NCBI RefSeq assembly: GCF_036967205.1
Contig: NZ_CP146022.1
Location: 8,432,001-8,496,000 of the forward strand
DNA from: Streptomyces sp. Q6
GTDB lineage: Bacteria > Actinomycetota > Actinomycetes > Streptomycetales > Streptomycetaceae
DNA length: 64,000 nt
Reading direction: 5' to 3'
Part shown: positions 43,778 to 46,636 of the stretch, piece by piece
Layout: every line of letters begins with the position of its first letter
How positions within the stretch are numbered: position 1 is the stretch's first letter
Made by a program: the position numbers and the translations under genes
The notes under the pieces: model-generated
Seen by the model: only the letters and a program-made list of their open reading frames with translations
Databases searched by the model: none
What the model was told of the DNA's origin: nothing

Positions 43778-44294
43778 GGTGGCGGCGGCCCGGCAGTACT
43801 GCGGATGGCCGCCTCCAGGACGCGCCCTGTGCGGGGCACAGAGGTGCCGGGATCGGCGCATGAGGTTGATCTTTGCAGTCGGTGCTCCGAGTTGAGTGAT
43901 TCCTTGACGATCGTGTGCGTGCGGAGGTGATTGCGGGGCATTCGCGTGTGCGGAAGGCGAAACGGTACGAGGACGTGAGGCGGCTGATGAGGGCAGCGGT
44001 GGTGGCGGCGGACAGGCCCTTGTGGGACGGCCTGCCACCCTGGGATCTCACCGTTCTCCTGGTGACCTTGGCCCTGGCGGCCGTAGCTGCGGTGATCGTC
44101 TCCATGCGGAGTTGGCACCTGCCCGACCATGACGTCGCTACGGCTGAACTCGGCCTCGGCTCACGTAGGGGTGTCGGCGGGAACCAGGACGGCGTCCCGA
44201 CGGCATGGGGCGTTCATGGTGCAGGTCGTGGGCTGAGCTTCCGGAGATCGTTTCGTACACATCGACCCGCAGAACTCGAACGAATGGAATCGTG
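43778..44294. other. Intergenic region with one doubtful frame
   Basis: A plus-strand frame 43915-44295 (GTG start, 126 codons) includes one membrane-like helix (WDLTVLLVTLALAAVAAVIV) but runs into the next gene and degenerates to Arg/His-rich sequence. It may be the end of a decayed small membrane-protein gene; I do not call it. Confidence 0.3.
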
Positions 44295-44450
44295 ATGATT
44301 GCTCTTGGACTGATCCTGCTGATCATCGGCCTGCTGGTGGGCATGGGCCTGCTGACGACCATAGACAGCGTCCTGATCGTCGTCGGCGCCGTCCTGTGGC
44401 TGCTGGGAGCCTCGGGCCGTGCCGTCGGTGGGCGAAAGCACTATTTCTAG
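44295..44450 (+). CDS. DUF6131-like small membrane protein, stop codon at an IS junction
   Basis: 51 residues from ATG 44295: MIALGLILLIIGLLVGMGLL, then TIDSVLIVVGAVLWLLGASG and GRKHYF. Two helices and the GRKHYF-type end match a short streptomycete family (DUF6131). The TAG stop (44448-44450) is formed by the target TA plus the first G of the inserted IS630-like element, so the protein remains full length. Function unknown. Confidence 0.85.
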   Translation: MIALGLILLIIGLLVGMGLLTTIDSVLIVVGAVLWLLGASGRAVGGRKHYF

Positions 44451-44479
44451 TGCCCTGACCGGGAAGGTTCGCCGGGTTG
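44450..44479 (+). repeat. Left terminal inverted repeat of the IS630-like element
   Basis: 30 bases beginning GTGCCCTGACC, exact reverse complement of 46160-46189. TA of the target site directly precedes it. Confidence 0.95.
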
Positions 44480-44533
44480 TTGGTGGTGGCGGTTGGATGT
44501 GCGGTGACGTCCGATCCGACCGTTGGGGGTGCG

Positions 44534-45655
44534 GTGGCTGAGCCTGTTCGGGTGCGCAGACTGACTGACCAGGAAGGGCAGAAGCTGCAGCAGATCGTGC
44601 GCCGGGGCAGCACCAGTTCGGTGCGGTACCGGCGGGCGATGATGCTGCTGGCCTCGGCCGGCGGGAACCGGGCACCGGTGATCGCGAAGCTGGTGCAGGC
44701 CGACGAGGACACCGTGCGCGATGTGATCCACCGGTTCAACGAGATCGGCCTGGCCTGCCTGGACCCTCGGTGGGCGGGAGGCCGTCCCCGCCTGCTCGAT
44801 CGTGATGACGAGGACTTCGTCATCCAGACGGCCATCACCCGCCCCACCAAGCTCGGCCAGCCCTTCACCCGCTGGTCGCTGCGCAAGCTCGTCGCCTACC
44901 TGCGGAAAGTTCACGGCCGGGTGATCCGCATCGGCCGCGAGGCGTTACGTGGCCTGCTCGCCCGCCGCGGCGTTACCTTCCAGCGCACCAAGACATGGAA
45001 GGAGTCGCCGGACCCGGACCGCGAGGCGAAGCTGGACCGGATCGAAGAGGTCCTTCACCGCTTCTCCGACCGGGTTTTCGCCTTCGACGAGTTCGGCCCG
45101 CTCGGGATCCGGCCCACCGCCGGCTCGTGCTGGGCCGAACGAAAGCGCCCCGGCCGACTGCCCGCCACATATCACCGCACCCACGGGGTGCGCTATTTCC
45201 ATGGCTGCTACTCGGTTGGGGACGACCGCCTGTGGGGCGTCAACCGGTGCAAGAAGGGCGCCGCGAACACGCTGGCCGCGCTGAAGTCGATCCGTGCCGC
45301 CCGCCCCGACGGCGCACCGATCTACGTGATCCTGGACAACCTGTCTGCCCACAAGGGCGCCGACATCCGCCGCTGGGCGAAGAAGAACAAGGTCGAGCTG
45401 TGCTTCACCCCGACCTACGCCTCGTGGGCAAACCCCATAGAGGCCCACTTCGGACCGCTGAGACAGTTCACCATCGCCAACTCCCACCACCCCAACCACA
45501 TCGTGCAGACCAAGGCTCTGCACGCCTACCTGCGCTGGCGCAACGTCAACGCCCGCCATCGTGACGTCCTGGCCGCCGAACGCAGGGAACGCGCCCGCAT
45601 CCGCAGCGAGAAGGGCATCCGATGGGGCGGACGCCCGCTCACGATGGCGGCCTGA
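44534..45655 (+). CDS. IS630 family transposase
   Basis: 373 residues from GTG 44534 (GGGGGT upstream; GTG 44477 also in frame). An N-terminal helix-turn-helix (VRRLTDQEGQKLQQIVRRG; LVQADEDTVRDVIHRFNEIG) and winged-helix segment (LLARRGVTFQRTKTWKESPD) precede the DDE catalytic core: Asp in VFAFDEFGPLGIRP, Asp in IYVILDNLSAHKGADI and Glu in ASWANPIEAHFGPLRQF. All three catalytic residues are present and the frame is intact, so the enzyme may be active. Confidence 0.95.
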   Translation: MAEPVRVRRLTDQEGQKLQQIVRRGSTSSVRYRRAMMLLASAGGNRAPVIAKLVQADEDTVRDVIHRFNEIGLACLDPRWAGGRPRLLDRDDEDFVIQTAITRPTKLGQPFTRWSLRKLVAYLRKVHGRVIRIGREALRGLLARRGVTFQRTKTWKESPDPDREAKLDRIEEVLHRFSDRVFAFDEFGPLGIRPTAGSCWAERKRPGRLPATYHRTHGVRYFHGCYSVGDDRLWGVNRCKKGAANTLAALKSIRAARPDGAPIYVILDNLSAHKGADIRRWAKKNKVELCFTPTYASWANPIEAHFGPLRQFTIANSHHPNHIVQTKALHAYLRWRNVNARHRDVLAAERRERARIRSEKGIRWGGRPLTMAA

Positions 45656-45672
45656 CCAGATGTTCCGGCGGG

Positions 45673-46074
45673 TCAGACAACCAGCGCCGCGTGCAGCGCA
45701 TCGAATGCTTCACGAAGTTCCAACGTGGCGATCGGATCGATCTCCATCTGCAAATGACACACGCCGTCGTCGCCGTTGGGAGTCAGACGCACGAAAAAGG
45801 CGAAACCGTCCCCGACGGGCTCCGCCTTCAACGTCATCGGATTGCTCCGGCCCGGAGTCACCGCCACCGAAAAGCGTCCACCCGACGGCGCGCGCAGGTG
45901 AGAGAGCACGCGGGCCGCGAAGTCCATGACCTCCGCAGCGCTGACATCCGCGGTGAAGTCAGCCGTCAGCCACGAGCACCAATCGGCAGTGACCTGCCAG
46001 GTGTCGCCATCGGTCCGAGCCAGTTCCACCCACACGTCGTCGCTGCCGAGGCGTATCCGCGGTAGTTCCATCAT
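45673..46074 (-). CDS. Passenger gene inside the IS: small acidic protein, unknown
   Basis: 133 residues from ATG 46074 (GGAGGG fits ATG 46071 better). Features: ELPRIRLGSDDVWVELARTD, then WQVTADWCSWLTADFTADVS, VMDFAARVLSHLRAPSG, GFAFFVRLTPNGDDGVCHLQ and IDPIATLELREAFDALHAAL. It is compact, acidic and alpha/beta with no signal or helix; it resembles small DUF6228-type proteins of streptomycetes, but I am unsure. It ends 17 bp from the converging transposase gene, and its own promoter would lie in 46075-46159 within the element. Confidence 0.8.
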   Translation of the reverse strand: MMELPRIRLGSDDVWVELARTDGDTWQVTADWCSWLTADFTADVSAAEVMDFAARVLSHLRAPSGGRFSVAVTPGRSNPMTLKAEPVGDGFAFFVRLTPNGDDGVCHLQMEIDPIATLELREAFDALHAALVV

Positions 46075-46159
46075 CGCCCTCCGACATCCGAGCCTGGGCT
46101 CAAGATCCTATGAGGCAGATCTCCCTCATCGGAAGCCATCACGCCATCCACCGCCCGCT

Positions 46160-46189
46160 CAACCCGGCGAACCTTCCCGGTCAGGGCAC
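46160..46189 (-). repeat. Right terminal inverted repeat of the IS630-like element
   Basis: Exact 30-bp reverse complement of 44450-44479; the TA duplication follows at 46190-46191. Confidence 0.95.
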
Positions 46190-46306
46190 TAGCCCCGAGT
46201 GCGTGCAAGGTGGGCAGAGCTGCCTCTGAGGCACGAGTGAGCCACCCTGCTGCTGCGTACTCAAGGCGCCAACCGCATCCACGACCAGGACATGTGGGTT
46301 GATTTA

Positions 46307-46351
46307 TGCCCGCACTGGTCACCGGCGTTCCGCCGGTGACCAGTGCGGGCA
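46307..46351. terminator. Very stable hairpin right of the IS
   Basis: 21-bp perfect arms (46307-46327 with 46331-46351) and a 3-nt loop. It lies 117 bp beyond the IS end, where the transcript of the interrupted DUF6131-like unit would originally have ended. The stretch 46352-46636 holds no gene and should contain the next promoter. Confidence 0.65.
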
Positions 46352-46636
46352 CTGGCTTGTGCGGGCATTGTCTTGTGTGGCATTCGGACAGCGTGTCCGC
46401 ACGTCCACACCATCCGGCCTGGCCGCGCGGGGCGAAGGCACTCCGGTGCGCGACCGACCGCCGGATCGTTCAGACGTAAACCGCCTGATGTCCGGTCAAA
46501 CCGCTCCTTCGGCGAGGTCTCCGATGAGGTTCCGGGCCCGCCCGGGCACATTCATCTCACCCGTGCGCGGTACGGTCCTGATTCGGGGGTATCGGGGGTT
46601 GAGTTACTAGCGGCGCTTCGGATGTGAGGCGGATCC

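Follow-up and report, generated by a model that had tools for sequence, protein, structure and literature searches.

An IS630-family element with a passenger gene in Streptomyces sp. Q6 and the variable cargo slot of its relatives

Members of the IS630 family usually consist of a transposase gene only and are commonly regarded as bare selfish units. In ISEcp1, which belongs to the IS1380 family, the transposase can skip the normal right end and use a farther one, taking adjacent genes with it; the outer end is then usually a poor match. Integron cassettes form a pool of small, mostly single genes on one type of vehicle, and depend on an integrase and on attC sites.

The element described here was found in a window of 64,000 nucleotides from Streptomyces sp. 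Q6 (the whole stretch of DNA that was analysed; assembly GCF_036967205.1, contig NZ_CP146022.1, positions 8,432,001 to 8,496,000). In agreement with the IS630 family (IS630/Tc1/mariner superfamily), it possesses a transposase recognized by the IS630 model, a TA duplication at CTAG and 30-bp inverted repeats, but it differs from that family by carrying, at a fixed slot, a gene unrelated to transposition. As in ISEcp1-type capture, the transposase would pass an inner right end, use an outer one and gain genes; unlike in ISEcp1, the outer end in this IS630 lineage matches an IS end well, and it is the inner one that has decayed. Integron cassettes are comparable in role only, with small and mostly single genes on one kind of carrier, whereas the IS630 lineage moves by means of a DDE transposase, usually with one cargo unit per element.

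Insertion sequence derivatives with passenger genes are designated by the accepted term transporter IS (tIS, PMC9330008). As the class is defined in the accessible part of that source, the window element belongs to it, since it is an IS whose ends enclose a passenger gene; relative to what that part describes, it stands apart in that one IS630 lineage displays 45 nucleotide cargo clusters among 62 cargo elements (window element counted once) in one slot, with bare and three-ended forms alongside. Orphan immunity genes, as presented in the accessible accounts of acquired interbacterial defence, are similar in that some elements carry immunity-family cargo and no toxin gene was noticed in the slot; here, however, the genes sit on an IS in Streptomyces and most cargo is of other kinds. 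Neither IS630 passengers in Streptomyces nor a cargo-swapping IS630 lineage was found in the accessible literature searched, the scope of which stopped short of most subscription journals and of ISfinder. The transporter IS concept is already known, and an IS630 lineage with interchangeable cargo is apparently new within that literature.

The element and its copies in the host genome

The original prediction placed at window positions 44450-46189 an IS630-like element with perfect 30-bp repeats and a TA duplication. This was confirmed, the assignment to IS630 being that of NCBIfam. The element is 1,740 bp long and contains a transposase gene and a convergent passenger gene between its two ends. 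The left terminal inverted repeat (44450-44479, plus strand) is the perfect complement of the right one (46160-46189, minus strand; 30/30), and the copies of the TA target duplication are located at 44448-44449, in a CTAG context, and at 46190-46191. When 44447-44479 is compared with 46160-46192, the complementarity is perfect over 33 nt, which corresponds to the 30-bp repeat and the CTAG context. Two flanking IS copies, characteristic of a composite transposon, were not found, as the element has a single transposase and a single pair of ends.

The transposase gene (44534-45655, plus strand) encodes 373 aa from a GTG codon, with HTH and DDE regions; a second possible start, TTG at 44477, is also open. 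When scanned from the TTG start, the protein matched the NCBIfam IS630 model NF033545 with 155.1 bits (cut-off 100), and Pfam HTH_29, HTH_32 and DDE_3 were all above cut-off. From the transposase stop to the right end extends a cargo slot of 504 nt (45656-46159), where related elements hold other genes. In the window element, it is occupied by the passenger gene P0001 (45673-46074, minus strand), the ribosome-binding site of which, GGAGGG, was read from the sequence at 46077-46082 (minus strand) and is followed by two in-frame ATG codons, giving 133 codons from the first and 132 from the second. As the homologues L145, L038 and L149 start at the second ATG, the 132-codon form is somewhat likelier; the homologue L040 starts at the first. 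The predicted second gene, convergent, with its own ribosome site and no part of a transposase, was thus recovered.

The element is inserted at the stop codon of a small DUF6131 gene (44205-44450; Pfam score just at the cut-off), which is unbroken because the TA duplication restores its TAG stop. Just to the right of the element, positions 46307-46351 form a perfect inverted repeat of 21 bp around a 3-nt loop, which is overlapped by two 16-nt direct repeats (46343-46374, 88% alike). A terminator is one possible identity of this structure, a small repeat element another.

In the host genome (8.95 Mb), five copies were detected, window copy included, with 100% identity over the full 1,740 bp and the passenger in each of them. 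They all lie at different sites with TA on both sides within CTAG, so that the proposed check, recurrence at different sites with TA duplication, was positive for 5/5 copies. Because these five identical copies occupy different CTAG sites, the passenger belongs to the mobile unit, as had been anticipated, and the identity of the copies suggests a recent movement of the element. The transposase would act on both 30-bp ends, put the whole 1.74 kb into CTAG and duplicate TA, by the chemistry of the IS630 family; as the anatomy and the five identical copies show, the passenger travels along, being inside the ends. A joined-flank search of 61 genomes, host included, gave no clean empty site, and the intact element with the P0001 passenger was found in no genome searched except that of the host. 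Near another host copy, a distant transposase relative was noticed (L054:9822-10649, 29% identity over 303 residues).

The cargo slot in related elements and its filling

Transposase matches with E up to 1e-60, a cut-off that also lets in relatives at about 42-45% identity, were present in 136/295 genomes of the genus and in 66/150 genomes of the family, in 11 of its 17 genera (host counted in each case). We examined 81 foreign loci with transposases at least 80% identical in the aligned part. The first set comprised 60 of the best 62 foreign genus hits, the incomplete G239:C241 and G249:C60 being left out. The second consisted of 20 of the next 25 family hits, to which L192 was added, a locus collected with the more distant set; the identity of its transposase is 83% in an aligned part of no more than 136 residues and 65% over the whole. 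Cargo was called when a slot of at least 150 nt separated the transposase stop from the right end and both ends were accompanied by TA. With the same thresholds, the control for ends in the wrong orientation, which covers the first set only (64 loci), was positive at 1 of 2,889 TA positions.

A cargo slot enclosed by both ends was found at 57 of the 81 foreign loci, and a slot with the right end only at four (4/81); a good left end is absent in the counted cargo elements L104, L116, L132 and L133. Bare elements of about 1.24 kb were found at nine loci (9/81), two of them with the right end only, and a good left end is absent in the counted bare elements L130 and L136. The remaining 11/81 loci displayed a right end without TA, a contig edge or no credible pair of ends, and include L183, where the best 'ends' resemble a different inverted repeat. 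Slot length varied from 257 to 3,312 nt, with a median of 629. Among the elements examined, the cargo-bearing state is the commoner one. The unusual cargo that had been predicted is therefore real, but its description as one odd passenger was too narrow, cargo being commoner than the bare form. Nor do all other copies of the ends lack a passenger, an outcome considered beforehand: related ends do enclose cargo, mostly different from that of the window element.

The search was extended to more distant elements. Three relatives at 66-68% transposase identity are all bare, two of them being copies in one genome. For a subfamily with 37-41% identity, ends could be recognized at 7/16 loci when up to 7 mismatches were accepted; of these loci, L204 and L206 are bare and L196, L197, L202, L205 and L208 bear cargo. 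Outside the host family, there are seven loci with transposases 65-71% identical. L250 and L251, from one genome in another family of the class, share an 88-aa ORF, contained in both copies in a slot of 294 nt; the other five comprise one slot with poorer ends (6 mismatches), three bare elements and one locus without credible ends.

The cargo proteins to be scanned were picked by hand, and the clusters left out include L092, L093, L096, L116, L122, L127, L129, L132 and L187; the family names that follow indicate resemblance and not demonstrated activity. Among the first 30 proteins, 24 had a Pfam match at E up to 0.01 and six had none. The families matched were Imm51, Imm53, SUKH-4, NADAR, GNAT (2), alpha/beta hydrolase (4), MarR, short-chain dehydrogenase, HxlR, glyoxalase, methyltransferase, inositol monophosphatase, S66 carboxypeptidase, OMP decarboxylase (PyrF), APH, AAA kinase, aminoglycoside-2''-adenylyltransferase, mycothiol-S-transferase and DUF6368, with a SnoaL-like match below cut-off. 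Ten further proteins gave APH, AICAR transformylase (PurH), chloramphenicol phosphotransferase-like, hydrolase and GNAT matches, NACHT just under cut-off, DUF6225 below cut-off and three without match. A tblastx clustering of the cargo (33 clusters) was discarded in favour of the nucleotide clusters, as one cluster chained 17 slots with unlike proteins, a high-GC artefact.

Some cargoes deserve separate mention. The one in L173 (2160-4412) is a 750-aa NACHT-like NTPase, just under the Pfam cut-off and without PADLOC match at E up to 0.01. In L133 (2479-3410), two overlapping ORFs resemble a second transposase nested in the slot and adjoin the mycothiol-S-transferase gene. The cargo of L120, L125 and L179 is related to the housekeeping enzymes OMP decarboxylase PyrF and AICAR transformylase PurH, and such proteins could perhaps act as spare drug targets.

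When cargo pairs were compared, dN/dS was 0.05-0.39 in six of nine; the other three, with 0.67-1.05, are uninformative because their dS is only 0.005-0.027. An internal stop was observed in the cargo ORF of L142. The open frames and the dN/dS values of six of the nine pairs support the view that the cargo would generally be useful to the host.

In bare elements, the right end lies within a few nt of the transposase stop. Behind this stop, inner-end relics were detected in 14 of 65 cargo copies (61 foreign and 4 own) at p<0.01 and in 19 of 65 at p<0.05, versus 1/65 for the mid-slot control in both cases. Substitutions and short deletions are among the damage observed, as is the loss of the flanking TA. 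In L247, the inner and outer right ends are both present. On a plasmid of S. tendae 139, DUF6368 cargo lies inside both ends, with CA after the inner end and TA after the outer one, and a plasmid of Streptomyces canus NBC_01585 bears a three-ended element with cargo and TA after both the inner and outer right ends. Cargo was also found within both ends on plasmids of S. anthocyanicus NBC 01636 and of Streptomyces sp. Mg1, an M15 peptidase in the latter, while on a plasmid of S. aurantiacus the stretch examined contains the inner right end only.

In the elements examined from this Streptomycetaceae IS630 lineage, the stretch from the transposase stop to the right end is a slot occupied by widely differing genes, mostly single ones, and the bare 1.24-kb members are probably ancestral. 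Cargo would probably be gained when the transposase passes over the end that directly follows its gene and uses one further out; decay of the inner end would then fix the cargo. In the window element, an inner-end relic was not found behind the transposase stop (p about 0.5), and therefore end-skipping remains unsupported for that element itself. Considered as a whole, the explanation that we favour, a transporter IS of the IS630 family with a lineage-wide variable slot, cargo gain by end-skipping and a selected passenger, is given a probability of about 0.85.

A composite origin was also considered, in which a gene was enclosed between two IS630 copies, one of which then eroded to its end; each cargo element would in that case be a degraded composite transposon and not a product of end-skipping. 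Decayed inner right ends are compatible with both origins and therefore do not separate them. The composite origin draws support from the window element, where the right 62 bp match the inverted left 66 bp with 79% aligned identity (perfect 30 bp included), a similarity that would fit an outer end copied from the left end. It is also favoured by L187, in which the sequence bordering the right end on its inner side is clearly similar to a left end (z 10.9), this resemblance being weak in the window element (z 1.9-3.1); a few other elements present a weak right-end resemblance inside the distal end. However, in most of the 65 distal ends examined, the DNA just inside resembles neither the left nor the right IS end, and the extra similarity is missing. 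We consider a composite origin as a possibility to be kept in mind, although not the probable one.

Cargo may also have been exchanged. In the pairs L085/L142 (transposase 79%, slot 87% nucleotide identity) and L117/L121 (84% and 89%, respectively), the cargo is less diverged than the transposase, which hints at cargo exchange or at a stronger constraint on the cargo. The pair L139/L143 behaves in the opposite way, its cargo (75%) being more diverged than its transposase (79%).

The passenger family

For the passenger itself, 49 distinct foreign relatives were compared. With more than 50% identity, there are 28, of which 18 have full-length ORFs without internal stops and 10 are partial or broken. 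IS debris (15 nt or more of IS sequence from outside the slot) accompanies 11 of the full-length ORFs, seven being free of it, and eight of the partial or broken ones, which amounts to 19/28. Beside the 18 full-length ORFs, no intact transposase was found within about 1.5 kb or more, contig permitting, and the dN/dS of the passenger versus nine of the full-length homologues was 0.16-0.48. Since full-length ORFs occur without an intact transposase and dN/dS is low, the passenger appears to have often been kept after loss of the IS. ORF integrity and dN/dS show that this predicted small protein is kept by selection, its ORF often outliving the transposase.

The 21 other relatives have at most 50% identity or were recognized by profile only. 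Sixteen of them adjoin the genes of menaquinone decarboxylase (TIGR03701) and prenyltransferase MqnP (NF041584), and none of these (0/16) has IS debris beside it; in the stretches examined, no menaquinone genes were found beside the 28 closer relatives. In L042, L043, L044 and L049, the operon gene overlaps its neighbour, decarboxylase or prenyltransferase, by 4 nt. The five relatives outside the menaquinone operon are L257 (50% identity, plasmid-borne, one stop, IS debris), L030 (27%, with stops, probably a chance match), L229, L231 and L235, the last four having neither IS debris nor menaquinone genes. The passenger family is present in 3/197 genomes across the class, all three of the host genus, and in 19/150 family genomes (6/17 genera); it is absent from the host's own menaquinone operon. 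By these relationships, the passenger is a predicted mobile paralogue of an uncharacterised gene located between the menaquinone decarboxylase and prenyltransferase genes. For that gene of the futalosine menaquinone operon, no NCBIfam match was observed at E up to 0.01 (L042:6858-7259, L043:6516-6914, L049:6149-6625).

The passenger had been proposed to be a defence, immunity or regulatory factor. This is unproven: the suggested profile search was carried out and gave zero matches in Pfam, NCBIfam and PADLOC at E up to 1, and its operon relatives belong to the menaquinone operon. PADLOC models of known anti-phage defence match neither the passenger nor the transposase. Pfam gave nothing reliable for 14 family members (best DUF317, E 0.0013, one member), and a PDB sequence search with the family was equally unrewarding (best E 0.81). 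We would venture, as a weak and rather doubtful guess, that the passenger might be a stand-alone accessory or protective factor linked to menaquinone or quinone metabolism.

It could instead be an immunity protein that gives protection from the toxins of other strains nearby, a role that the Imm51, Imm53 and SUKH-4 proteins carried by sister elements may have, and its small size and its nature as a single, partnerless gene would agree with this. However, neither the passenger nor 13 relatives had an immunity-family match in Pfam, and where its relatives form part of an operon, this is the menaquinone operon, with the 4-nt overlaps described above; we regard this function as unlikely, though not far-fetched, and place it level with the quinone-related one. 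Regulation of its own transposase, as a transposition inhibitor or enhancer, is very improbable: the passenger is convergent with the transposase gene in all five intact copies, but sister elements hold different cargo or none even at transposase identities of up to 93%, the 18 loci with a full-length passenger ORF yielded no intact transposase, and homologues occur in an operon free of IS debris. Judging from the sister elements with other or no cargo, the passenger is presumably dispensable for transposition. Finally, a one-off nested insertion, in which a chromosomal gene fell by chance into one IS630 copy, would agree with the intact element with the P0001 passenger being present in the host genome only, but it is refuted by recurrence and has next to no probability left, given the five identical host copies, the passenger in other species with IS debris beside 19 of the 28 close foreign relatives, and the same slot filled in most related elements examined.

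A possible route of gene exchange in Streptomyces and relatives

The frequent occurrence of other genes in the same slot of related elements suggests that the lineage works as a gene shuttle. We propose, tentatively and at somewhat less than even odds, that cassette-like capture by end-skipping and inner-end decay has given Streptomyces and relatives a mobile library in which stand-alone antidotes are combined with spare copies of target enzymes. If true, this library would bring together immunity proteins, enzymes resembling drug-modifying ones, PyrF, PurH and a relative of a menaquinone-operon protein, in producers of many antibiotics.

With differing genes in most of the copies examined, the IS630 lineage would offer antibiotic-producing soil bacteria a way to exchange genes, similar in role to integron cassettes although with a far simpler machinery. 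Because bare, three-ended and locked forms coexist, the transition from IS to transposon can be studied directly. Furthermore, the analysis points to a protein family that is uncharacterised and has one branch located in the futalosine menaquinone operon, the other being carried by the IS630 element of the window.
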